From the NCBI RefSeq assembly GCF_018437505.1, contig NZ_CP072467.1, forward strand, positions 4,798,010-4,862,009: 64,000 nt of DNA. The letters run 5' to 3'. This document shows positions 2,978 through 51,952 of this stretch, in pieces. This DNA is from Spiractinospora alimapuensis. Its GTDB lineage: Bacteria; Actinomycetota; Actinomycetes; Streptosporangiales; Streptosporangiaceae. The notes beneath the pieces are model-generated. The model was not told the origin of the DNA. It saw nothing but the letters and a program-made list of their open reading frames with translations, and did not search any database. Positions within the stretch are counted from its first letter, which is position 1, and each line of letters starts with the position of its first letter. The position numbers and the translations under genes are program-made.

Positions 2978-3051
2978 TTGGCCAAACAAAACCCCGGCGG
3001 GTGCTCCCAACACCCCCGGGTTCGGCCACCAGCTTCAAAGGAGCTGATGAC

Positions 3052-3111
3052 ATGGGCATCGTACTGTCCGTTCTGGCCCGGCGATCAACCGGTGGGGTGG
3101 TGTCGTCATGA
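3052..3111 (+). CDS. 19-residue leader ORF, translationally coupled to the next gene
   Basis: ATG at 3052 follows AAAGGAG (3037-3043) by 8 nt, the best ribosome-binding site in this region, and encodes 19 residues (MGIVLSVLARRSTGGVVSS). Its TGA (3109-3111) overlaps the ATG of the next gene at 3108 in an ATGA arrangement, and that gene has no good site of its own. The small ORF therefore probably serves to bring ribosomes to the downstream start. I know no family for the peptide. Confidence 0.5.
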   Translation: MGIVLSVLARRSTGGVVSS

Positions 3112-3488
3112 CCGCCGACGACCGATTCATCAAGGAGTGCGGACACCCACGGCCGGGCTGGCACCCGGTGAAGGGGCCTGACCACCTGGGGTGCGTGATG
3201 CCGGAGTTCCACCACGGTCCGCACCGGAGTGTCTCGGGCTTCTCCTGGCCGCAGGACCCCAAGCTGCCGAACGTGGGCCACCTGCTCTACGGAGTAGTGA
3301 GCGAGGACCAGTGGCGGGGCATCGCCGGCCTGGAGGGCGTCTTCCGGCTCCCCGGAACCGCGATCACGTTGGTGAGTCCCACGGGACTCCTCCGCATCAT
3401 GTCGAGCTGCACCGCCCCCACCCGCTGGCACGGCGGCCGGATGGAACTCACCCTGAACGACGAGCTCGTGCACCTCTGGCCCCTCTGA
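3108..3488 (+). CDS. Hypothetical protein, 126 residues
   Basis: A soluble protein of unknown function. The N-terminal half has a Cys/His cluster: 'KECGHPRPGWHPVKGPDHLGCVMPEFHHGPH' spans residues about 9-41 and could bind a metal ion (two Cys and several His), which is seen in the sequence but not matched to a named zinc motif. The C-terminal half is beta-rich and ends abruptly at 'VHLWPL'. No signal peptide or membrane helix. The start overlaps the stop of the 19-residue leader ORF, and a strong hairpin follows the stop, so the two ORFs form a complete transcription unit opposite the GntR gene. Confidence 0.65.
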   Translation: MTADDRFIKECGHPRPGWHPVKGPDHLGCVMPEFHHGPHRSVSGFSWPQDPKLPNVGHLLYGVVSEDQWRGIAGLEGVFRLPGTAITLVSPTGLLRIMSSCTAPTRWHGGRMELTLNDELVHLWPL

Positions 3489-4078: not shown

Positions 4079-4516
4079 AATTCGGTCGAAACCGTGGCAA
4101 TACGGGACGTTTTTCGTAGTGTTGTCTACTGAATTATGTAGGCGTATGCTCTCTATATTACCGGTCGGTTTGCTGTGAATGGGAGTGTTCGCGGTAGAGA
4201 TCATATTTCGGCTCTATGTCACTAGCGCTTTTGGTTGGCTGAATCCATGTTTCGGCGCCCATCACGCCGGTGAGTGAGGGACATCTGACGAAATTGGCCG
4301 AACTGGTGCCAGAGGGTCGTTTGACCTTCTACGATGAAAACACGTTCACATATCGAACGTGGGTGGCCGGCGTGTATGCCGGTGCCTAGGAGGTGGGTCG
4401 TCGAATATTCCCACCCAGGGCGACCACGATCGTGGCTCTCGCCAGGCGCTCTCCCGAGCACCCTCCGTATCTGATGCTGGGAGGGCGCCTCCTCGTATAC
4501 GGGGAGGAGGTGACAC
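4079..4516. other. Intergenic stretch with no recognisable gene
   Basis: The DNA here is markedly AT-richer than most of the window. I see no ORF with a credible ribosome-binding site until the small ORF at 4517. The only structure is the pair of hairpins at 4461-4510 described separately. It may be the decayed flank of the element on the left. Confidence 0.5.
4461..4510 (+). promoter_or_regulatory. Two adjacent hairpins covering a ribosome-binding site
   Basis: CCCTCC (4461-4466) can pair with GGAGGG (4480-4485), and CCTCCTC (4489-4495) with GAGGAGG (4504-4510). The second hairpin buries the ribosome-binding site of the small ORF at 4517. Because both left arms are CCTCC-like and both right arms GGAGG-like, the first left arm could also pair with the ribosome-binding site, giving mutually exclusive folds of the kind used in translational control. 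Structure is read by eye; no ligand or aptamer is recognised. Confidence 0.35.
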
Positions 4517-4648
4517 GTGGATAACAACGGAAGGGGGCATGTGGCGCGGCTGGTTCGGTACGCAATCGCTTGCGAAGACCGAACCAGCCGCTTGGTGCTG
4601 CTGATCGTTGTCAGCGGCGCCGTGATCGGGATGATGTTCATCCCTTAG
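4517..4648 (+). CDS. 43-residue one-helix membrane protein
   Basis: A GTG start at 4517 lies 6 nt after GGAGGAGG (4503-4510) and opens a 43-codon frame ending at TAG 4646-4648. The product has a polar, basic N-terminus (VDNNGRGHVARLVRYAIA) and a single hydrophobic helix (RLVLLIVVSGAVIGMMFI) at the C-terminus, so it would sit in the membrane with its head inside. I do not recognise a family; tiny hydrophobic proteins of this sort occur in actinomycete plasmids and integrative elements (Spd-like spread proteins are one possibility). The strong ribosome-binding site and the hairpins before it support it as real. Confidence 0.45.
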   Translation: MDNNGRGHVARLVRYAIACEDRTSRLVLLIVVSGAVIGMMFIP

Positions 4649-5375
4649 GAGAGTCCGACCTCGGCTACCAAACGTCGTCGAACTCTCCGCTCAACCCAGG
4701 GTAAGCGCGAGACCCTCTCTGCGGGCAGGCGGGTGCCCTGGCTGTTGTGGCTGGGCTGTATCTGCTGCGTGCCGATGCAGCCCAGCAAGACTTATGTCGT
4801 TGGCCTAGCTCACGGGTCCGGTGCATGTCGGGGCGGCTTGGCTTGCCGGTTACCTGGGGTGACCCGGCGGCCGCGCGTCGATGCTCGGAACTGGTCCCAG
4901 TTCACGCCATGGATTGTTGTGAGTTGCGTTAACGATTTTCTGTGTACTGGTCGCTGGTCTGGATCAAAACATACACTTTCGACCGCCGTGTCGAAGCCGA
5001 ATGACAAATGTCAGGGTATGTCGATGTTTCTGCCTCTGGGGCATGAATTAAATTGGTCACCTATTGACGTTGTTCGGTGAGGTTCCATGTGCACGTGCGT
5101 TGGCTCTGAGTTGGCGTGTCAATCCGATCCCTGTGTCGCCGCTGCTCGTTTTCCCTGTTCAGGGCTACTTTAGGATGGCGGTGGCCCCTGGGTCGCGACG
5201 TGCGTTGAGTGGGGCCGTCGACGTCGTCACACGTCCTGGCCGTCCACGGCGTTTCCGTGTGATCATTGCCCCACCTTCAACACCTGATGCCTTTGTTCCA
5301 TGCATTCCGCGCTGTTGGGCAACAAGTTGAATGTCATTCAACAAAAAAGCAACAGGAGTTCGATTCGAAGATCAT
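4649..5375. other. Gene-poor intergenic stretch
   Basis: No coding region that I can support. It holds an imperfect-loop hairpin CTGGGCTG (4751-4758)/CAGCCCAG (4778-4785) and the short palindrome at 5326-5342. Composition is lower in GC than the operons on either side. Confidence 0.5.
5326..5342. promoter_or_regulatory. 17-bp palindrome, possible TetR-type operator
   Basis: GTTGAATGTCATTCAAC is a perfect 8-bp inverted repeat around one T. It lies 33 nt beyond the stop of the TetR gene that ends at 5376. The A-run that follows on the plus strand argues against a terminator in either direction. The form is that of a TetR-family site, but it is at the wrong end of the gene for autoregulation. 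Confidence 0.3.
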
Positions 5376-17707: not shown

Positions 17708-18041
17708 GTCCGCTCCCCGCGCGCGGGGATGGCCCCTTCGAGTGCCCGCAGGCGCCGAGACGCGTCCGGTCCGCTCCCCGCGCGCGGGGATGGCCCCACG
17801 CGCGAGTCATCATCCTGGACTTCTTGGTCGTCCGCTCCCCGCGCGCGGGGATGGCCCCCGTCCGCCATCGGCCAGGAGCACCGCGAGCACGTCCGCTCCC
17901 CGCGCGCGGGGATGGCCCCTCCTCGCGGGGGTATTTCTCGGTCATCCACACGTCCGCTCCCCGCGCGCGGGGATGGCCCACCGGCGCGAAAACCGCCCAG
18001 TAACAGTCACCCGTCCGCTCCCCGCACGCGGGGGTTGTTCT
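17708..18041 (+). CRISPR. Type I-E CRISPR array, six repeats and five 32-nt spacers
   Basis: A 29-nt repeat (starting GTCCGCTCCCC, with a CCCCGC/GCGGGG stem, ending GGGGATGGCCCC) occurs at 17708, 17769, 17830, 17891, 17952 and 18013, exactly 61 nt apart, so every spacer is 32 nt. Repeats 1-4 are identical, repeat 5 differs in its last base, and repeat 6 diverges after base 13 (CGCACGCGGGGGTTG...), as expected for the end far from the leader. Stem and 8-nt ATGGCCCC tail match Cas6e-processed type I-E repeats with transcription on the plus strand. Cas genes lie 24 kb away at 42233-51952. Spacers show no match that I can see inside the window. Confidence 0.97.
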
Positions 18042-41563: not shown

Positions 41564-42232
41564 TGGTTTCCTCCGGGGCATCATGGGGATGACGGGAAAC
41601 CTACGCAGTCCGCGCCATACCGCCCATCCCCCTAACCCGAATCCTCAGGTGGGCCCAGCACCACCCCCACACCCGCCCGAACATGCGAGTGGGCCTCCTC
41701 GTCAGGTTTTCTCCACCCCCATCAGTGCTTCGCCGCCCTCATGGTTTGGGGTGCACAACCACGGGCTGCGGTGGGGGTGAATCCACCCATGGGTGGAGAC
41801 GAGAAGCGAGAAGGCGACGGGCGCTCCCCAGAGTCGTCCTCTAGTAACCGCTAGTAGCGAAGTCGCGCGGACGGTTGCGATTCGTGGGGAAGCTTGGCGA
41901 AATTTCACGGAATGTGGTTCGTCTGAAGGGGTTTTCATTCGATTTGATTTCCGTAGTTGACTTCTCGAGGGAATGCACCTTTTTCGTTGGCGGTGAGGGG
42001 GTGGCGTCCGTCGCTGAAAAATGATCATTTGTCGAAGATCGTTGGTGGGGTGTGTGGTGGTTTCCCCTGGTTACTTGGGTGATGGGTGTGAATGATCGAA
42101 TGGTCTGTCGGTTCTTGATCGTCGCTGGGTGTGGTTGGGAATAGTCAGGAGTTTGAGCTGGGTCTCAATGTCCCTGAGTGGCGCTAGTGTTCGGCATATT
42201 CGGTCGATGATGACGAAATATTGGAGATTCTT
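41564..42232. other. Intergenic region upstream of cas3
   Basis: 669 nt with no supported gene. The first third is GC-rich and holds the repeated 18-nt sequence (41708-41725) and the inverted pair TCTCCACCC/GGGTGGAGA (41710-41718, 41793-41801). The rest, from about 41860, is AT-richer and presumably carries the cas3 promoter, for which no convincing -35/-10 pair can be chosen by eye. No CRISPR repeats are present. Confidence 0.5.
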
Positions 42233-45094
42233 GTGGGTCTCACTTCCCCTGACCTGCGCCACAAGGGAAAAGAACGCGGCCTGAAGGGTGCGCACTATCC
42301 GGCCCTCTGCCATGGTGCGGACGTCGCCGCGGTGGCGATCGTGGTGTGGCGGCGTTTCGTCGCTCCCGGGTTACGCGCCACCATCGCCGGGGCGATGGGG
42401 GTGACGGAACGCGAGGCCGAGAGGATCATCGCGTTCTGGGCCGCGCTACATGATGTCGGGAAGGTCGAGCCGCACATGCAGCGCAAGCTGAAGGCGCGGC
42501 TCCCGTCCAGCTATCCGGCTCCAGCCGGAAAACCCGTCCCGCACGACAGGGTCGGCTGTCTCTGGCTGACGGTAGCGCTGGTCGAGGCCGGGTACCCGTC
42601 GCCGACCTCCGATGACCCGCTGACTCACCTGGTCGCGCAGATGCTGGGCGGCCATCACGGGCGATATACCGCACAGGTCTCTTCTCGCGGTGATCTGCGT
42701 ACCACCATCGACCTGCCCGAGGACATCTGGGACGAGCAACGGTTCGCCTACCTGGCCGCCATGCGCGACCTCCTAGGCGACCCACCGCGTCCGCCGGCAC
42801 TCGACCCGACGACCGCAGTGCTCGTCACCGGCATTGTCGTGCTGTCCGACTGGCTGGCGAGCCAGGAGCACTTCATCCTGGAGCGCGTCCCCGCCTCACT
42901 CGACGACTTCGACCTGCGGACCCACTTCGAAGGAGTTCTGCGGCGAGCCCCCAGTCTTCTGACCGAGGCGGGACTGGACCGCCTTCGTACTCCGCCGGCG
43001 AGCTTCGCGGAGACGTTCCCGGACATCTCCATCCCCCACGCCTTGCAGCAGTCCATCGCCACGCACCTGCCAAGGCTCGTCACAGACACGCCGGGCTTGT
43101 TGATCGTCACCGCCCCCACCGGTGAAGGCAAGACCGAGGTCGGGCTCTTCGCCTCTGACCACATGGGGGAGGCGTGCGGTCGCCCCGGACGCACCTTCCT
43201 CCTGCCGACCATGGCCACCGCGAACAGCATGCACACTCGGGTGCGGGACTTCGTGAGGCGGCGCGCCGACGCCCCTGCCCCGTTGATGAAACTGCACTCG
43301 ATGGCGTGGCTCGACCAGGAGTTTCTTCCGGCGTCTCCCAGACCCGACTCCGCCATCCTCAGCAGCGACGAGTTCGACGCTGCCCTGGCGCCCACCCAGT
43401 GGCTCTATGGGGGACTCCGGGCGCTCCTGGCCTCCTGGGGTATCGGAACGTTCGACCAGGCCCTGCTCGGAATCCTCCCCACCCGGCACAACGCGGTGCG
43501 GCTGTTCGGCCTGGCCGGGGGATCCGTGGTCGTCGACGAGGCGCACGCCGTTGACCCTTACATGCGGTTGGAGATGGAGCAGCTCCTGCGCTGGTTCGGC
43601 CGGTTCGGCGTCCCGGTCGTGTTGCTGTCCGCGACGCTGCACCGTTCCGTTGCGGATGCCTACGCACGGGCCTACCTCGAGGGCCAAGAGGCGAAACTGC
43701 CACGCTCGCTGCCGGGGCGGCGGGGAAAGAAGTCGGGTCGCGAACCCGTGGTGGGCCACCTCAACTATCCCGGCTGGGTGTGCGTCACCACAGAGGACAA
43801 CACTCCGGTGGTGACGCACAACCCCGAACCGATCACCGTCACTGAACGACCGGCACTCACCGTCACCACCACATTCGTCCCGCTCCGCGAGCACCCCAGC
43901 CCCTACGGCAACAAGACCGACCACGAACTCGATCGCGTCGCCGCACTCGGTGAGCAGCTCGCCCCGGTGTTCACGTCCGGGGGCTGTGCCGCGGTGATCT
44001 GCACGACCGTGGCGGAAGCGCAAGCCACCTACGAGCTCGTGAAGCAACTTCGCCAAGACGTGGGCGCGAGTACCACCGAGCTGCGGCTGCTACACGCACG
44101 GTTTCCGCAACGGCAGCGGGACCGCATCACAGAGGAATTGGTCTACCGCCTGGGCCGTGATGGAGCAAAGGATCGGCCCGCATCGATGGTTCTGGTGGCG
44201 ACGGCGATCATCGAACAGTCTCTCGATATCGATGTCGACCACATGATTACTGACCTCGCCCCGCTCGCGCTGCTCCTCCAGCGGGCGGGGCGGTGTTGGC
44301 GGCATGAGGCCTGGCGTGTGGCCGACAAGGACGTGCCGGTGTTCACCCGTGGCCCCTTTACCGAGCCTCGGGTCAGTGTGCTCACACCTGAGGAATTCGT
44401 GGACAAGGAAGAGCTCCCCGGTGCATGGCGCGCCATTCACGGTACGTCGCTGCTGGTCCGAACCACCAATCTGCTACGCGAACACGGGGAGAAGGTCCGA
44501 ATCCCCGAGGACGTCCAGGATCTGGTGGAACAGGTCTACGACGCCGATCGCATCCGGGCGAGGGACGAGGCGGAGTATGAGCGTATGGCCAAGGAGACGG
44601 CTGAGCGTCAGCAGGGAGAGGAAGCGATCGTGCCCACGCCGGCCGCCCTGGACTATGGTGCTGACCTGCTGCGTATGAACAACGGAACGCTCTCCGACGA
44701 GGCGGTCACCACCCGCCTCGGTGCCGACTCGGTCCGCGTCGTGTGCTGCTTCCGAGACCCCGATGGGACGCTGTGGGCGGACCCAGAGGCCACCCAGCTC
44801 CTCCCTGGAGCCGAGCCCGAACGCACCCGCCCCCTCACCCGCGACGAGGCCGCGACCGTGATGAGCCTCAGCATTCCGGTGCGCGGCGGCAAATGGCAGA
44901 CGCGGCTCAGCGACGCGGACCTGACAGTTCCCACCCCGTGGCAGAACCGCCCGCAACTCGAACGCGTACTCCTCCTCCCCCATCCCGTGACCGAACCCGG
45001 CCATCCCACCCCCGCCTCCCTCGGCGGAAGGTCCTGGTTTCTCGACCCTGAGCTGGGGCTCAGGGTCGATGTTCCCGAGCGTCAACGACACTGA
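42233..45094 (+). CDS. cas3: CRISPR-associated helicase/nuclease Cas3 (type I-E)
   Basis: 953 residues. N-terminal HD nuclease: 'ALHDVGKVEPH' near 72 (HD pair) with 'HDRVGCLWL' near 104 and 'GGHHGRY' near 139. Superfamily 2 helicase: Walker A 'TAPTGEGKTE' near 294-302, DEAH box 'VVVDEAHAVDP' near 435, motif III 'LLSATLHR' near 466, motif VI 'LLQRAGRCWRH' near 683. Recruited by target-bound Cascade to unwind and degrade invader DNA 3' to 5'. GTG 42233 follows GGAG by 6 nt; a TTG at 42221 would place that GGAG inside the gene. Followed by a small membrane ORF and terminator before the Cascade operon, so it is probably a separate transcript. Confidence 0.97.
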   Translation: MGLTSPDLRHKGKERGLKGAHYPALCHGADVAAVAIVVWRRFVAPGLRATIAGAMGVTEREAERIIAFWAALHDVGKVEPHMQRKLKARLPSSYPAPAGKPVPHDRVGCLWLTVALVEAGYPSPTSDDPLTHLVAQMLGGHHGRYTAQVSSRGDLRTTIDLPEDIWDEQRFAYLAAMRDLLGDPPRPPALDPTTAVLVTGIVVLSDWLASQEHFILERVPASLDDFDLRTHFEGVLRRAPSLLTEAGLDRLRTPPASFAETFPDISIPHALQQSIATHLPRLVTDTPGLLIVTAPTGEGKTEVGLFASDHMGEACGRPGRTFLLPTMATANSMHTRVRDFVRRRADAPAPLMKLHSMAWLDQEFLPASPRPDSAILSSDEFDAALAPTQWLYGGLRALLASWGIGTFDQALLGILPTRHNAVRLFGLAGGSVVVDEAHAVDPYMRLEMEQLLRWFGRFGVPVVLLSATLHRSVADAYARAYLEGQEAKLPRSLPGRRGKKSGREPVVGHLNYPGWVCVTTEDNTPVVTHNPEPITVTERPALTVTTTFVPLREHPSPYGNKTDHELDRVAALGEQLAPVFTSGGCAAVICTTVAEAQATYELVKQLRQDVGASTTELRLLHARFPQRQRDRITEELVYRLGRDGAKDRPASMVLVATAIIEQSLDIDVDHMITDLAPLALLLQRAGRCWRHEAWRVADKDVPVFTRGPFTEPRVSVLTPEEFVDKEELPGAWRAIHGTSLLVRTTNLLREHGEKVRIPEDVQDLVEQVYDADRIRARDEAEYERMAKETAERQQGEEAIVPTPAALDYGADLLRMNNGTLSDEAVTTRLGADSVRVVCCFRDPDGTLWADPEATQLLPGAEPERTRPLTRDEAATVMSLSIPVRGGKWQTRLSDADLTVPTPWQNRPQLERVLLLPHPVTEPGHPTPASLGGRSWFLDPELGLRVDVPERQRH

Positions 45095-45183
45095 GGCGCC
45101 GTGGGTCCACCCGTCGCCTTGCGAATAAATGGTCGGGCGGCTATGGTCTGTGACGCTGGACTCCTCATCCAGAAAGGAGCGGC

Positions 45184-45297
45184 GTGGTGCGAGGCGTCAT
45201 CACCACACATGACCTGGTGGTCTGGGGTGCTGGAGGTAGCGGGGGATTGCTACTGGGGGTGATTATCGGCTTCCTGGCGGCTTTGGCGATGCTGTGA
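45184..45297 (+). CDS. Small one-helix membrane protein between cas3 and cas8e
   Basis: A 36-37 residue frame begins at GTG 45184 or, with better spacing, GTG 45187, after AAAGGAG (45173-45179), and ends at TGA 45295-45297. The polar head (VVRGVITTHDLVVW) is followed by a Gly-rich hydrophobic helix (GGLLLGVIIGFLAALAML) that runs to the C-terminus. A 14-bp terminator hairpin starts 2 nt after the stop. No family known to me. Position in a type I-E locus, strong ribosome-binding site and own terminator favour a real gene, but its link to CRISPR function is unproven; it could be co-transcribed with cas3. Confidence 0.5.
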   Translation: MVRGVITTHDLVVWGAGGSGGLLLGVIIGFLAALAML

Positions 45298-45298
45298 G

Positions 45299-45328
45299 CT
45301 GTGCTCCGCCCCCAGGGGCGGAGCACAG
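45299..45328 (+). terminator. Terminator after the small membrane ORF
   Basis: CTGTGCTCCGCCCC (45299-45312) pairs perfectly with GGGGCGGAGCACAG (45315-45328), a 14-bp stem with a 2-nt nominal loop. It separates cas3 and the small ORF from the Cascade operon. Confidence 0.8.
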
Positions 45329-45650
45329 ACCACCCCCACGTGCGTGGGACTCGCTCCCGGGTCAGGTCGTATGTGCCGCCCGTCGCCGGTCCATCACCGC
45401 GTGCGCGGTGCCCTCAAGGTTAGCAAGACCTTACTGGTGGCACGGAAGAAGCGACAGCTCAATTCGGGTCTCTTCGCGTGGCGGCCAATCTGGACCGGGT
45501 GAATCGGTGGAGATTTCCCCAATCTCCTGACAGTGCCACCGGTTTCGCGATATCGTGAAATGAATTAACAAGATCCACCCCACGATGAGCCCCTCCTGCT
45601 CTCGTCCCGAGATTCTCACCCCTTGAGTCACTGCCAGGGAGAGACACCCG
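45329..45650. other. Upstream region of the Cascade operon
   Basis: 322 nt without a supported gene. It contains AAGGT-TAGCAAG-ACCTT (45416-45432 area), a small inverted repeat, and an AT-richer stretch at about 45540-45610 where the cas8e promoter probably lies. GGGAGAG before 45651 is the ribosome-binding site of cas8e. Confidence 0.45.
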
Positions 45651-47222
45651 ATGTTCAATCTCGCCACATCCGGATTCGTGACCCCGCAGGGGCTCGATGG
45701 CACGGTCGACGCTCCGATCGGCCTGGAGGCACTGCTTCGCGACGCCCACAACTACTCGGGAATGGAGCTCCCGCTTCCCCCGGCGATGGCCGGTTTGTAC
45801 CGGATCCTCGCGCTACTCGCCGCTCGCGTCACCGGATTGGACGACTACGACCGGGAGCACGAGTGGCAGGTCGCGCGCGACCAGGTATTGGCCGAAGGGG
45901 CGTTTGACGCCGAGGCGATCACCGCCTACTTCGATGACTACCGGGACCGATTCGAGCTCTTCGACGCGAAGCGTCCGTGGGGACAGGACCCGCGCTTGCG
46001 GGATGAGTGTGACAAGTCGTCCGGCATCAACAAGCTGGTGTGGGGAAGACCAGCCGGGCGGACCCAGGTGTGGCTTCGCCACGTTGACGACCGAGAGGCC
46101 CGGCCCGTGCCCGCGGCAGAGGCTGTGCACCACCTGATCGCCACGCTTTACTACGGCCCTTCCGGTCTGTGCTCCCGGCGAACCGCGAACGGTGTGACCG
46201 CGGGTAATTCCGCCGCCGGACCACTACGGGGCGCGCTGTCCATCCATCCGGTCGGACGCACGCTGTTCGAGACGATCGTGCTCAACATCCCCTTCGTCAG
46301 CAGCGAGATCGAGGGCGATCCCGCGTTCTGGGAGCGAGACGAGCTCCGTGATCCCACCTTCGCCCCCGACCCCGGCAACGGTCTCGCCGGCGTTCTCACC
46401 AACCAGGTACAGCACGCCGTCCTGCTGTATCCCTCCGATGATGGGCAAAGCGTCGTCGACGCGACCGTCACCTGGGGGGCGCGCCCCCCGCGAGACGGTG
46501 CCACCCCCAAGAATCCCGATCCATTCCAGGTGTACGTGACCACCAAGGACGGCCGAGAGTTCGCGCGGTCCGCGGACGCCAGCCGTGCGGTGTGGCGGGA
46601 TGTGGACCCGATCCTCCAGGACACCGAGCGCGACGCCGGCAGGACCACCCGACCGAAGATCATCACGACCTTCAGCCGCGCCCTGCGCGGACGCCCCGAC
46701 CTCCGCATCCAGGTCTTCGGCTTCGACCAGGACCGTCAGGCGCGGGACAAGGCGTGGTTCACCGCCGAAACACCACCGGTACTCCACTGGCTTAGCGCTG
46801 AACCCGAGCAGGCGGGCGATGACAAGAAAGTTAGTCGGGTCCTCAATCACCTCCGTGCGGCCACCGACGCCGCTGAGGACACAGGTTGGCAACTGGAACG
46901 CACCCTGACACAGGTGGGGCGGGAGTGCGGGTTGGTCGGCGGATCCACCGGTGGCGACCGCGCCCCGTGGAACGAACTCAGTATGGCCCGGTACTGGCGC
47001 AGGGCGGAGGCAGTGTTCTGGGACGCGGTCACCGGTGACGCTCCCGTGACCCCGAATCGGTTCATCTCTGTGGCGCTTCAGGTCTACGACACGGCCACCG
47101 ACGACTACCGACACCGTCCACGGGTGGCTCGCGCGGTGGCTCGCAACGTCGGCTCCCTTTACCGCAACTGGGTTACCGAACCCACCATTAGCAGCGAAGC
47201 GACGGAAGGGCGGAACGAATGA
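45651..47222 (+). CDS. casA: Cascade large subunit Cas8e (Cse1/CasA)
   Basis: 523 residues matching Cse1: N-terminal 'NLATSGFVTPQGLDG', 'ALLRDAHNYSGMELPLPPAM' region, 'DAKRPWGQDPRLRDECDKSSGINKLVW' (loop L1-type), and the C-terminal four-helix bundle ending near 500. In type I-E Cascade this subunit reads the PAM and recruits Cas3. Its stop overlaps the cse2 start (ATGA at 47219-47222). Length is normal for the family (500-560). Confidence 0.95.
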   Translation: MFNLATSGFVTPQGLDGTVDAPIGLEALLRDAHNYSGMELPLPPAMAGLYRILALLAARVTGLDDYDREHEWQVARDQVLAEGAFDAEAITAYFDDYRDRFELFDAKRPWGQDPRLRDECDKSSGINKLVWGRPAGRTQVWLRHVDDREARPVPAAEAVHHLIATLYYGPSGLCSRRTANGVTAGNSAAGPLRGALSIHPVGRTLFETIVLNIPFVSSEIEGDPAFWERDELRDPTFAPDPGNGLAGVLTNQVQHAVLLYPSDDGQSVVDATVTWGARPPRDGATPKNPDPFQVYVTTKDGREFARSADASRAVWRDVDPILQDTERDAGRTTRPKIITTFSRALRGRPDLRIQVFGFDQDRQARDKAWFTAETPPVLHWLSAEPEQAGDDKKVSRVLNHLRAATDAAEDTGWQLERTLTQVGRECGLVGGSTGGDRAPWNELSMARYWRRAEAVFWDAVTGDAPVTPNRFISVALQVYDTATDDYRHRPRVARAVARNVGSLYRNWVTEPTISSEATEGRNE

Positions 47223-47983
47223 GTCAACCTCCGGAACGCGAGGTGTTTCAGCGGCGGATCAAGACCTTCGTGGAGGACATTAGTGAGGTCGTGGAGCACC
47301 GTTCGCGAGAGCGCGCCGCGCTGCGTCGTTCCCTGGGCGGTGACCCCAGCAAGATCGACGAGGTGCATCCGATCGCACGTCGAGTGGTCGTCCCACACAT
47401 CGCCTCTGATGACTGGCGCCCGCGTGAACGCGCGTTTTACACCGTGGCTTCCTTGATCGCCGCGCAACCTCGCAAGCGTCAGCTGGACCTGAAGTCCGAC
47501 GGCGACGAGGCCGTGCCGATGGGGGAGGTACCGCCGGAGCAAGAGGAAACACCGGTTGACACATCGCGCGGGGAGGACGGAACGCCCGAGCGCGAAAAGC
47601 GCCTCAGACGGAACCTCGGCGCCGCACTCGCCAACGCGGCGGTGGATCGTGCGAAGGCCGCGCACGGTATCCGCCTTGATGACGATCCGAAAGCAGTTCG
47701 CTCCCCTGAGGAGGACCGGCTCCATCTCCTTTGTCGGCAGGACAACGACGGTCTGCACCGATTCATCCCCAAGGTGACGCGCCTCTTGCGTGCCCGGGAC
47801 CGGACTCCCGACTGGGAGGTCCTCACAGAGGACCTCGCCTATTGGAGTGGTCGTGGCCGGGACATCGTGGCCAAGAACTGGCTCGACGGCTTCTACCGAA
47901 CCCTCGAGGCCAGGAAGCGGTACGAGCTGAAGAAGAACGACGACACCAAACAGACGACGACCCCCGAAGAGGACAACACATGA
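47219..47983 (+). CDS. casB: Cascade small subunit Cse2 (CasB/Cas11)
   Basis: 254 residues, longer than E. coli Cse2 (about 160). The conserved helices are present: 'WRPRERAFYTVASLIAAQP' near 62-80, 'LHLLCRQDNDGLHRFIPKVTRLL' near 165, 'YWSGRGRDIVAKNWLDGFY' near 203. Between them (about 88-135) is an acidic insertion (EVPPEQEETPVDTSRGED and onwards) and the C-terminus ends in a Lys/Asp/Thr-rich tail. Cse2 forms the belly dimer that holds the displaced strand and crRNA. Overlaps both neighbours by 4 nt. Confidence 0.93.
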   Translation: MSQPPEREVFQRRIKTFVEDISEVVEHRSRERAALRRSLGGDPSKIDEVHPIARRVVVPHIASDDWRPRERAFYTVASLIAAQPRKRQLDLKSDGDEAVPMGEVPPEQEETPVDTSRGEDGTPEREKRLRRNLGAALANAAVDRAKAAHGIRLDDDPKAVRSPEEDRLHLLCRQDNDGLHRFIPKVTRLLRARDRTPDWEVLTEDLAYWSGRGRDIVAKNWLDGFYRTLEARKRYELKKNDDTKQTTTPEEDNT

Positions 47984-49161
47984 GCAGCGCCGCGTATCTC
48001 GACATTCACGCCCTGCAGACTCTCCCGTACTCCAACGTCAATAGAGATGATCTTGGTGCCCCGAAGACACTTGTCCTGGGCGGCAAGGAACGAACCCGTG
48101 TCTCCAGCCAGAGCTGGAAGCGCGTGGTGCGCCACCAGGTGGAGGAACGACTCGCCGATCCCACCTACCGCACGCGTCGCTTGATCGCCGCAGTCGCTGA
48201 ATGTCTGGGAGAGAAGCACGAGTGGTCGGAGGAGCTCGCGCTCCAGGGCGGGGTTGAGGTCGTGCGCGCCATGGGATCGAAGGGGGTGAAGATCGAACCG
48301 CCGAAGAAGAACAGTGACGGCAAGCCCGATCTCACGATCCCGCGCGACACCTCGGTGTTGTTCTTCGTCCCCCCATCGGCGGTGGAGGCACTCGCTCACC
48401 TCGCGTCCGAGCACCCGGACGAGATCACGGCGCAGTTGAACGCCAAGAAGCCCAGCTCCAAGGGTGTACTCCCCACCGCGGAGATCGAGGAAATCCTCGC
48501 AACGCGCAACGCCTCGGTCCGGCTGTTCGGGCGGATGATGGCCGAGCTCCCCTCCAGCCACGTCGACGGCGCGGTGCAGTTCGCGCACGCGTTCACGGTG
48601 CACAGCACCAACATCGACGTCGACTTCTTCACCGCCGTTGACGATCTCCTTGGGGAGGGGGAGACGGGCAGCGGTCACATGAATGAGGGCATGTTCGCCG
48701 CCGGCACGTTCTACCGTTATGCCAACATCAACCTGTCCCAGCTCGCCGCCAACTCCGACGGCGACATCGGCACCGTGAAACAACTCGCTGGTGAGTTTCT
48801 GCGGGCGTTCATCGACACCGTCCCTAGCGGGAAGCAGAACGCCACCGGCGCCACTACCGTCCCCGAACTGGTGCACATTGCGGTGCGCGGCGACCGACCG
48901 GTGTCCTTCGCCGGTGCCTTCGAGCAGACGGTCGAGGGGCACCGGGGCCACATGGCCGATGCCCAAGGGGTGCTCAGCTCCTACGCCGCTGACCTCGCCA
49001 AGGTGTGGTGGCCGGACACCGTCCTGTTCAGCGGACACAGCCGGTTTGGTGAGGCCATGGAGCTCTCCGGGCTGGGCCAGGAAGTCGACGGCTACCCACA
49101 ACTGATCCAGGCGGCGCTCGGCGCGATCACCGACGGTGGACCGCGGGGAGCGTCCCGGTGA
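47980..49161 (+). CDS. cas7e: Cascade backbone subunit Cas7e (Cse4/CasC)
   Basis: 393 residues from ATG 47980 (ATGA overlap with cse2). Signature N-terminus 'LDIHALQTLPYSNVNRDDLG' followed by 'GKERTRVSSQSWKRVVR' identifies Cas7e, six copies of which coat the crRNA spacer. 'GSGHMNEGMFAAGTFYRYANINLSQL' near 228-253 is the typical 'thumb' and core strand region. A longer frame to 47731 is shadow sequence inside cse2. Confidence 0.95.
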   Translation: MSSAAYLDIHALQTLPYSNVNRDDLGAPKTLVLGGKERTRVSSQSWKRVVRHQVEERLADPTYRTRRLIAAVAECLGEKHEWSEELALQGGVEVVRAMGSKGVKIEPPKKNSDGKPDLTIPRDTSVLFFVPPSAVEALAHLASEHPDEITAQLNAKKPSSKGVLPTAEIEEILATRNASVRLFGRMMAELPSSHVDGAVQFAHAFTVHSTNIDVDFFTAVDDLLGEGETGSGHMNEGMFAAGTFYRYANINLSQLAANSDGDIGTVKQLAGEFLRAFIDTVPSGKQNATGATTVPELVHIAVRGDRPVSFAGAFEQTVEGHRGHMADAQGVLSSYAADLAKVWWPDTVLFSGHSRFGEAMELSGLGQEVDGYPQLIQAALGAITDGGPRGASR

Positions 49162-49919
49162 CCGGGCTGCTGCTGCGCCTCGCGGGACCCATGCAGAGCT
49201 GGGGCGAGGACCGCGTCTTCGGCCGGCGAAACACCTTGCGGCACCCTACCCGCTCCGGACTGATCGGTTTGTTCGGAGCGGTGCGGGGGGTCCCTCGGGG
49301 CGGCAGCTTCGCCGAGTACGACGACATCACCGTCACGGTGCGGATCGACCGTGATGGCCTCTACATGTCGGACTATCAGACGGCCGGGGGCGGCCTCCCT
49401 GCGAACAGGACCGCCCCCATGGCTGGCGGCGGGTACCGTGACCGCAGCACCGCAACGATCCAGACCTGGCGTCCCTTCCTCGCGGACGCGGTCTTCACGG
49501 TGGCGGTGACCGGCCCGGAGTCGGTCATCCGGCCCACGGCCGAAGCCCTGGAGGCTCCCTTCTGGCAGCCTTACCTGGGGCGGCGCTCCTATCTGCCGGA
49601 GCAGCCCATGCTGCTGCGCTCCGGTGTCGCCGACCCGGCTGACGCCCTGCGCACCCGCCTCCCTCTTCCGCCTCAGCGCGACCGCACGACAGGCGTCGAA
49701 TTCATCCACGAACACCCCCTCGAGGACGCGTCCCGTCACCACACCCGCACGTCCGTGAAGGATGTTCCGCTCCCCGACCGCATCGGCGACGGAGTGGAAC
49801 GATCCTTCGCGACGCGGGACGTCGTGGTCACCACCGAAGCGCTCCCCGAGGAACTCCACCACGACGAGCACGAGGCGTACCGAAAGGCCTTGCGCGCCTT
49901 CATCCTGGAGGGACGTTAG
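49158..49919 (+). CDS. cas5e: Cascade subunit Cas5e (CasD)
   Basis: 253 residues from GTG 49158, overlapping the cas7e stop by 4 nt. 'LLLRLAGPMQSWGEDRVFGRRNTLRHPTRSGLIGLFGA' (residues about 4-41, quoted in part 'LAGPMQSWGEDRVFGRR') is the canonical Cas5e start, and 'DYQTAGGGLP' follows near 72. Cas5e grips the 5' handle of the crRNA. 'PFWQPYLGRRSYLP' near 134 is also typical of the family. Confidence 0.95.
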   Translation: MTGLLLRLAGPMQSWGEDRVFGRRNTLRHPTRSGLIGLFGAVRGVPRGGSFAEYDDITVTVRIDRDGLYMSDYQTAGGGLPANRTAPMAGGGYRDRSTATIQTWRPFLADAVFTVAVTGPESVIRPTAEALEAPFWQPYLGRRSYLPEQPMLLRSGVADPADALRTRLPLPPQRDRTTGVEFIHEHPLEDASRHHTRTSVKDVPLPDRIGDGVERSFATRDVVVTTEALPEELHHDEHEAYRKALRAFILEGR

Positions 49920-49921
49920 AC

Positions 49922-50605
49922 ATGCGCCTATTGCTCAGCAAGATCTCCATGAGCCCCCACCGCCTAGGAGTCCAGTTCGCCCAGGCCGGCGACCACCACC
50001 GCATGTTGCTGAAAGCCCTGGACACCGCGCTCGGGCCCACCCAGTCGACCACCCCACGCGCGGACGCCGGACTGCTCTTTCGGGAAGAAATCACTCGGCG
50101 TGGGTGGTCGCTGCTGGTCCAGAGCCAGCTGCCCCTCGATGGCGATCAGCTCGGTCCCGGCTACGCGCTGGATGGCACCCGCGACATCTCTCCCATCCTG
50201 AATCACCTGCACGAGGGACGTCGAGTGCGGTACCGGGTCGTCGCCGCGCCCATCCGGCGTCTCGGCAAGACCGACAAGCCCCGTGACCTGATCGGTGCGA
50301 ACGGCGAACGGCTCCCGTCCGGGGAGATCACGATCCCGCTGCGGGGCCGTGCCGCTGAACAGTGGTGGGTCGGCAAGGCCGAGGCCGCAGGACTGATCCC
50401 GGAGAGCGTGTTGTCGCGTCCGGTTGGCAACGCGGTCGACAACCGCCGCAGGAACGGCAGGAAGCCGGTACGCCTGCCCGCCGTGTGTTTCGAGGGCACC
50501 GCTCGGATCCGCGACGGGGCCGCAGTGGGGACGGCCCTCGCCCACGGCATTGGCCGGGGAAAGAACTTCGGACTGGGGCTGCTCAGCCTTACCTCAGGAG
50601 AGTGA
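49922..50605 (+). CDS. cas6e: CRISPR repeat endoribonuclease Cas6e (CasE)
   Basis: 227 residues with two ferredoxin-like folds. The catalytic His is expected in the N-terminal 'QFAQAGDHHRMLLKALD' segment (His near 24-26), and the Gly-rich loop 'ALAHGIGRGKNFGLGLLSL' at the C-terminus binds the repeat stem. Cuts the pre-crRNA 3' of the repeat hairpin, leaving the 8-nt ATGGCCCC-type handle seen in the array at 17708. Two nt separate it from the cas5e stop. Confidence 0.95.
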   Translation: MRLLLSKISMSPHRLGVQFAQAGDHHRMLLKALDTALGPTQSTTPRADAGLLFREEITRRGWSLLVQSQLPLDGDQLGPGYALDGTRDISPILNHLHEGRRVRYRVVAAPIRRLGKTDKPRDLIGANGERLPSGEITIPLRGRAAEQWWVGKAEAAGLIPESVLSRPVGNAVDNRRRNGRKPVRLPAVCFEGTARIRDGAAVGTALAHGIGRGKNFGLGLLSLTSGE

Positions 50606-50609
50606 GCAC

Positions 50610-51623
50610 ATGTCAGGTTTCGACCCCCGAAGGGACCTCAACCGTCCTACGCTCGCGATGCTGCCCCGCGTCTCGGACAACTTGTCCTTCCTGTTCGCCG
50701 ACCGGGTACGCATCACCCAGAACGACACCGGTGTCCATGCGGAGACCACGACCGAGGACGACCGAATCCAACGTGTCGCTCTCCCCACCGCGTCGATCGC
50801 CTGCCTGATGTTGGGGCCTGGCGTTTCGATCACGACCCCCGCGATGGCGACGTTCTTTCGCCACGGAACCACCATCGTCACCACAGGAGCAGGCGGCATC
50901 CTGTACTACGGCGCTCTGCAGTCCCGTGAGAAGTCCACTACGTGGCTACAGAAGCAGGTCAGCGCCAGCAGCGATGAGAAGCGGCGAGAGCGGGTCGCGC
51001 GGGCTATGTACGAGATGCGATTCGGCGACGAGCCCTTTGACGGAGTGTCCATCGCGGAGCTACGCCGGATGGAGGGCCGGCGAATGCAGGCCCTGTACAA
51101 GTCCTACGCCACCAAGTACAAGCTGAAACCGTTCCGCCGCACGTTCAATCCCGAGGAATGGGACACCAGCGATCCGGTGAACCGCGCGTTCTCGTCCGCG
51201 AACTCCGCCCTGTACGGCGTAGTGCATTCCGTCCTCGCCCACCTCGGCCTCTCGCCGGCAGTGAGCTTTGTTCACCAGGGGAAACAACACTCGTTCGTCT
51301 ACGACATCGCGGACCTCTACAAACATGAGACCACGATCCCCCTCGCATTCTCCCTGCACTCCTCGTCCGAGCCCGATCGTGACGCCCGCCGGAGTCTGCG
51401 TTCCCAGTACCGCCTCTACCGGATGATCCCGCGCATCATCCAAGACACGCAGCTTCTGCTCTCCCTCGATGATCCCGATTTCGAGGACCGGTTCGAGGAG
51501 GAGGTCCCGAAGAACTGGCGCGTCACCGACCTGTGGGATCCCGAGACAGGATCGGTGGCCGGCGGGGTGAACTACGGTCGCGAACCGTTCCCCGACGATC
51601 CTGACTCACTCGAGAGGGACTGA
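50610..51623 (+). CDS. cas1e: CRISPR integrase Cas1e
   Basis: 337 residues from ATG 50610 with CAGGAGAG before it. The metal-binding residues are in place: Glu in 'LRRMEGRRMQALYKSYA' near 158, His in 'FVHQGKQHSFVYDIADLYK' near 225 and Asp residues in the 'YDIAD' of the same segment. Asymmetric Cas1 dimers with Cas2 insert new spacers at the leader end. The TGA overlaps the cas2e ATG by one base. Confidence 0.96.
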   Translation: MSGFDPRRDLNRPTLAMLPRVSDNLSFLFADRVRITQNDTGVHAETTTEDDRIQRVALPTASIACLMLGPGVSITTPAMATFFRHGTTIVTTGAGGILYYGALQSREKSTTWLQKQVSASSDEKRRERVARAMYEMRFGDEPFDGVSIAELRRMEGRRMQALYKSYATKYKLKPFRRTFNPEEWDTSDPVNRAFSSANSALYGVVHSVLAHLGLSPAVSFVHQGKQHSFVYDIADLYKHETTIPLAFSLHSSSEPDRDARRSLRSQYRLYRMIPRIIQDTQLLLSLDDPDFEDRFEEEVPKNWRVTDLWDPETGSVAGGVNYGREPFPDDPDSLERD

Positions 51624-51952
51624 TGGGCGCAATGGTGGTGATCACAACGACCGCGGTCCCTGACAGCCTGCGGGGTGCCCTGTCCCGATGGATGGTAGAA
51701 CCCGCCCCCGGCGTGTTCGTCGGCACCATGAGCACGCGGGTCCGGGAAGAACTATGGGCCCGGGTCGAGGAGTCCATCGAAGACGGGGCGGCGACGTGCA
51801 TGCATCCGGCAGACAACGAACAAGGATTCGACCTGCTCACCGCAGGTCAACGCCGTCGTGAGGTTGCCGATTGGGACGGCATCCAACTGATCCGTTTCAA
51901 TCCGCTCGATTCACCAGGACCCGAGGACCCGAAGGATCTCCAGGGCGGTTGA
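51623..51952 (+). CDS. cas2e: CRISPR adaptation protein Cas2e
   Basis: 109 residues. 'MVVITTTAVPDSLRGALSRW', 'GVFVGTMSTRVREELWARVEE' and 'DNEQGFDLLTAGQRRREVADWDG' are the E-type Cas2 pattern (ferredoxin-like fold, E. coli YgbF-like). It bridges two Cas1 dimers. It is the last gene of the operon and, unlike most type I-E loci, is not followed by a CRISPR array but by a terminator hairpin. Confidence 0.95.
   Translation: MGAMVVITTTAVPDSLRGALSRWMVEPAPGVFVGTMSTRVREELWARVEESIEDGAATCMHPADNEQGFDLLTAGQRRREVADWDGIQLIRFNPLDSPGPEDPKDLQGG

Follow-up and report, generated by a model that had tools for sequence, protein, structure and literature searches.

A probable CreTA-type module with a candidate small membrane toxin in the cas3–cas8e gap of a type I-E CRISPR locus of Spiractinospora alimapuensis

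Small modules that depend on clustered regularly interspaced short palindromic repeat (CRISPR) systems have been listed in a 2025 review as CreTA, with an RNA toxin, CreR, and CrePA, with a KilA-N protein (PMC12737573; statements on this and the other published systems refer to excerpted parts of the cited articles). The CreT toxins that have been worked out act as RNAs, except for the translated type I-E toxin of Citrobacter rodentium (PMC12055562) and the KilA-N protein CreP (PMC12737573), and the type I-E CreTA of C. rodentium is the closest known system to the element described here. We analyzed a 64,000-nt stretch of the Spiractinospora alimapuensis genome (contig NZ_CP072467.1, positions 4,798,010 to 4,862,009; hereafter the window), in which the gap between cas3 and cas8e of a type I-E locus contains a small open reading frame (ORF), designated putative creT, and a degenerate mini-CRISPR on the opposite strand, designated creA. 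We propose, with a probability of roughly 77%, that this gap is occupied by an addiction module of the CreTA type, in which a small membrane protein would be the likely toxin.

The minus strand of the gap carries a one-spacer degenerate CRISPR that faces the small ORF, with a hairpin in between. A genome search with the gap sequence led to a host array at 2.49 Mb, which has a 29-nt repeat (GAAACCCCCGCGCACGCGGGGATGGACCG) and a period of 61 nt. When the window was scanned with this repeat, the best match was psiR1 (45387–45415, minus strand; 24/29), a degenerate type I-E repeat in which the 5′ handle ATGGACCG is intact, and the second was psiR2 (45326–45354, minus strand; 20/29), tied with five copies of the genuine array at 17.7 kb. 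The two repeats are spaced 61 nt apart and enclose a 32-nt spacer, psiS (45355–45386, minus strand). All seven stem pairs are kept in each repeat, with one G-U pair in psiR2, and both stems contain two-sided changes (C-G to A-T in psiR1 and G-C to A-T in psiR2). No further repeat match of at least 20/29 was found near the pair. As in CreTA, degenerate copies of the host repeat thus flank a single spacer-like sequence outside an array. This mini-CRISPR (45326–45415) is missing from a preliminary description of the locus, and it is the feature that decides between the possible readings of the ORF.

The protospacer-adjacent motif (PAM) of type I-E systems is AAG. Beside such a motif (45120–45118), the minus strand contains a target for psiS at 45086–45117; psiS starts with GCGACGGGCGG, and the minus-strand DNA at 45117, 3′ of the PAM, reads GCGACGGGTGG. 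The first eight nucleotides are identical and positions 10 and 11 also match, which corresponds to 9 of the 11 scored positions (1–5 and 7–12). Random 12-mers from the window reached the score of psiS in the same gap only 53 times in 20,000, and just two of the 832 AAG sites in the window, 45117 and 41814, matched psiS at 9/11 or better. The target adjoins the putative creT promoter (TTGCGA-N17-TATGGT, 45119–45147, plus strand), which was placed by eye and agrees with the consensus at 8 of 12 positions. With the promoter so placed, psiS is partly complementary to the creT promoter region beside a PAM, as in the CreTA modules.

The putative creT (45184–45297, plus strand) comprises 36–37 codons. 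It starts at GTG 45184 or GTG 45187, stops at TGA 45295–45297, and has a product of 37 or 36 aa, respectively (MVRGVITTHDLVVWGAGGSGGLLLGVIIGFLAALAML). The Shine-Dalgarno (SD) sequence AAAGGAG (45173–45179, plus strand) precedes the two starts by 4 or 7 nt. The C-terminal half of the product is hydrophobic (KD17, 2.64) and is predicted to form a single helix. An AF2 model placed helices at residues 2–16 and 19–36 with a mean pLDDT of 83.5, but this model was built from one sequence and is informative on little except “helix.” By prediction only, the creT product is a small single-helix membrane protein. These results agree with the preliminary description, which had reported the ORF between cas3 and cas8e, its near-perfect ribosome-binding site and a membrane helix reaching the C-terminus, and had assigned the locus to type I-E. 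Between the convergent creT and creA lies a hairpin (45299–45328) with a 13-bp stem, a 4-nt loop and a folding energy of −30 kcal/mol (z = −7.2 versus shuffles), which shares the last 3 nt of psiR2 and is perhaps a bidirectional terminator.

An ORF with KD17 of at least 1.7 arose in 2.0% of dinucleotide shuffles of the 209 nt that separate target and mini-array in the window, and one with KD17 of at least 2.0 arose in none of 300; a hydrophobic ORF in this segment therefore exceeds chance. The creT ORF had no match in NCBIfam, Pfam or PADLOC. A plasmid search with the cas3–cas8e gap gave no match either, and an Rfam search gave two matches far below the gathering scores, which were taken as chance.

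The guide–target arrangement recurs in relatives. A Cas8e match was present in 79 of 341 genomes of the host's family, and 56 loci were fetched around the better matches, giving 57 cas8e loci together with the window. Gaps of less than 130 bp (19 loci) were left out, and the remaining 38, of 130 bp or more or undefined, were scanned with repeats from each locus's own array, or with a stand-in repeat in loci without an array, such as L078. A cut of 33 on the repeat-pair score, set by eye before the relatives' targets were examined, was reached by 27 loci; 11 loci scored lower and were dropped (L116, L100, L093, L072, L113, L103, L102, L097, L073, L115, and L082). L074, which scored 33 against a shuffle maximum of 35 and has lost psiS, was also dropped, so that 26 mini-arrays were kept. 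A self-consistent scan that detects 22 of these 26 recovered only L093 among the 12 dropped loci.

An AAG target of at least 9/11 was found in the own gap of 25 of the 26 mini-arrays, compared with 7 of 644 mismatched guide–gap pairs. At a threshold of 10/11 the figures were 18/26 and 0/644, and a contiguous match of at least eight positions beside AAG occurred in 8/26 own gaps versus 0/644 mismatched pairs. The only other PAM with a contiguous match in the own gap was ACG (1/26 versus 1/644), and this comparison supports AAG as the type I-E PAM. The sister pairs L083/L084, L107/L112, and L068/L069 were counted separately in the 26 and omitted from the mismatched pairs. In a search of the 26 loci, which total 398 kb with the window, for other AAG matches of at least 9/10, the site at 41814 was the only one outside a cas3–cas8e gap; four further matches are second sites within gaps, next to the first one.

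It is known that every sixth base of the guide is flipped out in type I-E Cascade and needs no match. Across the 26 loci, positions 1–5, 7, 8, 10, and 11 were matched in 24–26 cases and position 9 in 20; position 6 was matched in only 8 and position 12 in only 5. The best target was picked with position 6 unscored, and the low rate there is partly expected, but position 12 was scored. The low matching at positions 6 and 12, together with the seed pattern, makes the guides look made for Cascade, and the shortness of the match suggests Cascade binding without destruction. The repeats have decayed on one side. The last 8 nt of psiR1 (mean, 7.1/8) and the first 21 nt of psiR2 (15.5/21) are retained, while the first 21 nt of psiR1 (13.0/21) and the last 8 nt of psiR2 (3.9/8) drift. 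The same one-sided decay has been published for creA, in which psiR1 keeps the 5′ handle and psiR2 the 3′ handle (PMC8501985).

Target-to-mini-array distances are bimodal, with 34–68 nt in 12 loci and 114–282 nt in 14, including the window. In 9 of the 14 long-spaced loci, a hydrophobic ORF of 33–42 aa, counted from the likeliest start, was found on the creT strand, where dinucleotide shuffles expect 0.21. Reading the opposite strand gave no such ORF in any of the 14 segments, nor did any of 12 segments beyond the mini-array contain one; among 2,800 real segments drawn at random from the long-spaced loci, 7 had an ORF with KD17 of at least 1.7. Besides the window, the ORF-bearing loci belong to Thermobifida cellulosilytica (L071), Thermoactinospora rubra (L092), Nocardiopsis terrae (L067), Nocardiopsis sp. 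FIRDI 009 (L068), Nocardiopsis salina (L079), Spongiactinospora rosea (L090), Actinomadura sp. DC4 (L105), and genome G225 (L076). An SD sequence of at least five bases precedes seven of the nine ORFs. The nine ORFs showed no detectable mutual homology (best blastp-short E value, 0.43), and a search of the 39 further genomes in the genus of L068 gave no homologue of the L068 ORF. The preliminary description had proposed looking for the same ORF in related genomes; no homologue of the ORF itself was found in the family, but hydrophobic ORFs without detectable homology to it occupy the same slot.

Two of the relatives' genomes carry more than one copy of such a module. Genome G225 has two type I-E loci, L076 and L096, each with a degenerate mini-array, a guide and a target, and the membrane ORF is present in L076 only. 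In genome G320, from the genus of L071, creTA and the start of cas8e are duplicated in tandem (locus L074, oriented positions 3050–3450 and 4470–4760). The two repeats of the downstream copy have collapsed with loss of psiS, and this copy adjoins an intact creTA copy. The G320 creT ORF differs from that of L071 at 2 of 108 nt.

Outside the family, a contig search with the window Cas8e alone returned no loci, and a search with a nine-sequence Cas8e alignment returned 62. Judged by organism name, 32 of these come from outside the family, and these were tested; 29 loci in the family and L223, in which cas8e is cut, were left out. A candidate module was found in 13 of the 32 loci, and 12 of the 13 had an AAG target of at least 9/11; the single-guide null was 13/403, and up to 30 candidate pairs were tried per locus, which favours matches. 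In eight loci, one from Wenjunlia (L204) and seven from Streptomyces (L207, L210, L211, L212, L217, L220, and L221), the stretch between target and mini-array encodes, on the creA strand, a homologous membrane protein of 54–63 aa. Tblastn detects a homologue in a ninth locus, L213, and this locus seems to be read one base out of register. The most distant members, L204 and L210, matched the rest of the set with E values of 3e-6 or better. The dN/dS ratio was 0.11–0.51 over nine pairs of six Streptomyces-type loci (Nei-Gojobori; rough values, as the sequences are short). Judging by these ratios, the Streptomyces-type ORF is under protein-level constraint, and it is the best evidence for a selected protein in the toxin slot. 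The Streptomyces-type ORF and the other relatives' ORFs that were tried belong to no Pfam, NCBIfam or PADLOC family. No membrane ORF was found between target and mini-array in 5 of the 13 loci (L194, L198, L202, L213, and L215). A class sample contributed eight loci from outside the family; scanned with seven handle forms, six gave no match and two gave matches taken as chance.

The constraint on the protein in the toxin slot of the Streptomyces-type loci, together with the recurrence of the arrangement, favours CreTA with a protein toxin. We infer that the creA RNA would be transcribed from the minus strand, that Cas6e would cleave it at the two hairpins, and that Cascade would take it up in the manner of a CRISPR RNA (crRNA). 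The seed-length match of psiS at the AAG site beside the creT promoter would then let Cascade bind and block transcription, and the match is probably too short for Cas3 to destroy the chromosome. If Cascade were lost or inhibited, by mutation or by an anti-CRISPR, creT would be transcribed from its putative promoter and translated from the strong SD sequence, and its product would be expected to insert into the membrane and stop growth. Of the three options offered in the preliminary description, an abortive-infection pore comes nearest to this proposal.

Several findings weigh against a CreTA module with a membrane toxin. Across the 341 family genomes, the window creT ORF matched only itself at E < 0.001. 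Among the weaker matches listed, most lie inside much longer open frames, and the genus of the host consists of one genome, itself. The target score of the window, 9/11, is among the lowest in the 26-locus set. A sigma-70 scan with a threshold of 9/12 does not call the creT promoter; it calls two sites only, one of which (45289–45262) is on the minus strand within the creT ORF and leaves room for an antisense RNA. The hairpin at 45299 is strong, but the 14-bp terminator described earlier at 2 nt past the stop proved to have a 13-bp stem and no T-run, and it was not called by a terminator scan. In the relatives, 5 of the 14 long-spaced loci lack a hydrophobic ORF by the rule of the shuffle test, the SD sequence is weak in L067 and absent in L105, and L206, outside the family, has a good repeat pair (45) with no target above 6/11. 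Conservation of the frame, on which the preliminary description had staked its claim, is seen at the protein level in the Streptomyces-type equivalent but fails in a Nocardiopsis relative, L069, the sister of L068; there the ATG and SD sequence of the ORF are gone and three small deletions have occurred in it, while the creA guide and target are kept and a TTG-started, less hydrophobic frame remains. In Acinetobacter type I-F, a conserved creT mini-ORF acted as an RNA (PMC10097628). Finally, 12 of the 26 loci are short-spaced (L083, L084, L086, L095, L101, L107, L109, L110, L111, L112, L114, and L117), have no room for a membrane ORF and contain none, so that the mini-array by itself is no sign of a membrane toxin.

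The short-spaced loci would also fit autoregulation of the CreR type, in which the guide represses the cas8e (or cas3) promoter and the ORF is a non-toxic leader or a regulated accessory gene. A −10-like TANNNT element begins only a few bases after the PAM in 8 of the 12 short-spaced loci, compared with 1 of 13 long-spaced loci and a background of about 2%, as would suit a plus-strand promoter directed toward cas8e. A role in cas8e regulation or the production of RNA toxins is possible for the short-spaced modules, which would then be CreR or an RNA-type CreT. The window itself contains a possible second psiS target (41814–41845, plus strand) with an AAG PAM at 41811–41813 and a 10-nt perfect match, located 407 nt upstream of cas3, and the guide may also regulate cas3 through this site. 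We nevertheless consider it unlikely that the window module is of this kind. Downstream of the gap target come first the ORF and next the −30 kcal/mol hairpin, more than 300 nt short of cas8e. The second site called by the sigma-70 scan (CTGACA-N18-TATCGT, 45527–45556, plus strand; 9/12) lies between creA and cas8e and is a candidate separate cas8e promoter, from which cas8e could be transcribed without the creT promoter. The hydrophobic ORFs of the long-spaced loci and the conserved membrane protein of the Streptomyces-type loci also argue against autoregulation and for the proposed membrane toxin.

It is less probable still that creT acts as an RNA, through tRNA sequestration or a similar route, with the peptide being incidental. 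An RNA mode of action has been published for CreT in Haloarcula, Halobacterium, and Acinetobacter (PMC8501985; PMC10097628). The window ORF has a CGA at codon 3 and a CTA at codon 23, and CTA is scarce in the three cas genes in which it was counted (4, 2, and 0 occurrences). However, hydrophobicity recurs in nine ORFs that share no detectable homology, and an RNA function would not call for hydrophobicity. The likely protein-level constraint on the Streptomyces ORF and the requirement of the C. rodentium type I-E toxin for in-frame translation (PMC12055562) point in the same direction.

A chance ORF beside a dead relic array is very improbable. The lack of an ORF homologue and the degeneracy of the repeats agree with it, but the PAM and seed match was reached by few random guides, the own-gap matches far outnumber those of mismatched pairs, the stems have been kept through two-sided changes, and hydrophobic ORFs are enriched. 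The unrelated gene trapped between two transcripts, another option of the preliminary description, is likewise disfavoured, since the AAG-flanked guide match lies at the putative promoter and the layout recurs in relatives. The position of the ORF beside cas3 had suggested a membrane partner of Cas3, but a subunit working with Cas3 or Cascade has almost no probability left, since no homologue was found in the 341 family genomes, 79 of which have a Cas8e match, or beside cas3 or cas8e in relatives, whose ORFs in the same place are without detectable homology; the 12 short-spaced loci have no room for one; and the ORF has its own putative promoter and hairpin and is apparently regulated separately by the guide.

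The module is linked to a complete Cascade locus, as in CreTA. Eight adjacent ORFs match the NCBIfam models for cas3, cse1, cse2, cas7, cas5, cas6, cas1, and cas2, seven of them above the curated cutoff. The cas3 gene (42221–45094, plus strand; TIGR01587 and TIGR01596) and cas8e/cse1 (45651–47222, plus strand; TIGR02547) are above cutoff, and cse2, cas7e, cas5e, cas6e, cas1e, and cas2e follow at 47219–51952 on the same strand; the cas6e match (TIGR01907, 44.0 bits) is slightly below its cutoff of 45.2. No CRISPR array was seen adjoining the cas operon of the window, and an array is present in 55 of the 56 relatives' loci. The array at 17708–18040 of the window, located roughly 24 kb away from these genes, has a different I-E-like repeat (GTCCGCTCCCCGCGCGCGGGGATGGCCCC), and the host genome contains many CRISPR arrays with several repeat types.

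The separate 43-residue ORF that the preliminary description placed at 4517 was also found (4517–4648). It has a strong SD sequence, located beside a palindrome (4488–4507), and a hydrophobic C-terminus. No match of at least 18/29 to the host repeat was detected at 3.9–5.2 kb, and this ORF therefore has no such mini-array beside it.

The principle of CreTA has already been published, and what is likely new here is the small membrane protein as the probable CreT of actinobacterial type I-E systems. Modules of this sort may have been predicted earlier in the first CreTA, CreR or CrePA papers. A literature search on CreTA, Streptomyces, and CRISPR returned reviews only, judged by title and abstract, and among the matches listed for CreT, transmembrane, and CRISPR, the items on CRISPR defence were reviews. 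The text of a 2025 article on CRISPR in actinomycetes contains none of the words “toxin,” “CreTA,” “degenerate,” and “intergenic” (PMC12231136).

As a set, type I-E modules that carry small membrane proteins offer a testable class of toxins, and one of these proteins, the Streptomyces type, shows signs of constraint. If the proposal is correct, the odd gap in these cas operons would be explained, and actinomycete strains deleted for cas genes may suffer toxicity if the gap is left in place. Loss of CRISPR would release the likely toxin, as a built-in anti-CRISPR alarm. The guide–target pairs are, in addition, a natural data set on the degree of matching required for Cascade to repress without cutting. 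A bolder extension, which is conceivable although we are inclined to doubt it, is that actinobacterial type I-E systems widely carry CreTA modules with fast-changing small membrane toxins, unrelated between lineages and recruited again and again to the cas3–cas8e slot. Cascade would then serve as an RNA-guided repressor, an anti-CRISPR attack would depolarise the cell, and the window guide would join CreTA and CreR in one RNA.

The toxins of type I toxin–antitoxin systems, such as Hok, TisB, and Fst, are small single-helix membrane proteins under tight repression, and the antitoxin is an antisense RNA acting on the toxin mRNA. The window candidate resembles these toxins in being a predicted small single-helix membrane protein, but the proposed repressor is a CRISPR guide acting on promoter DNA. 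Next to the ORF lies a CRISPR-like guide that matches a site upstream of the ORF, and the minus-strand promoter-like site lies inside it. With CreR and CrePA, the module would share a crRNA-like RNA that makes the Cas effector a repressor, and with CrePA also a protein toxin (review, PMC12737573). CreR represses cas genes and has no toxin (PMC12737573); in the window, the main target precedes a small ORF and a hairpin, and the second site lies 407 nt upstream of cas3. CreP of CrePA is a KilA-N protein acting on FtsZ (PMC12737573); the 37-aa window ORF has no Pfam match, KilA-N included, and membership in CrePA was rejected.

Among the CreTA modules described, those of type I-B in the archaea Haloarcula and Halobacterium have a degenerate psiR1-psiS-psiR2 with one-sided decay and a partial match to the toxin promoter with a PAM, as in the window (PMC8501985; PMC9458426). 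Their toxin is an RNA with a minimal rare-codon ORF, whereas the window encodes a 37-aa hydrophobic protein. The Acinetobacter type I-F module likewise has a degenerate mini-CRISPR by a small SD-bearing ORF, in the cas3–csy1 gap, but its 33-bp ORF is an RNA toxin and is divergent from creA, while the two are convergent in the window (PMC10097628). The resemblance is closest to C. rodentium CreTA (Basta et al., 2025; PMC12055562), which belongs to the same subtype, lies in the cas3–casA gap (495 bp), and has a small ORF (96 bp) with a strong ribosome-binding site whose toxicity needs translation. Its CreA is also crRNA-like, is encoded on the opposite strand, and partly matches a PAM-flanked site in the toxin promoter. 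The two modules differ in layout and PAM: the C. rodentium CreA is located upstream of its ORF, with ATG as the PAM, whereas creA of the window is downstream and convergent, with AAG as the PAM. The C. rodentium toxin has no homology to annotated sequences in the published account (PMC12055562), whereas the window candidate is a predicted single-helix membrane protein with counterparts in other actinobacteria.
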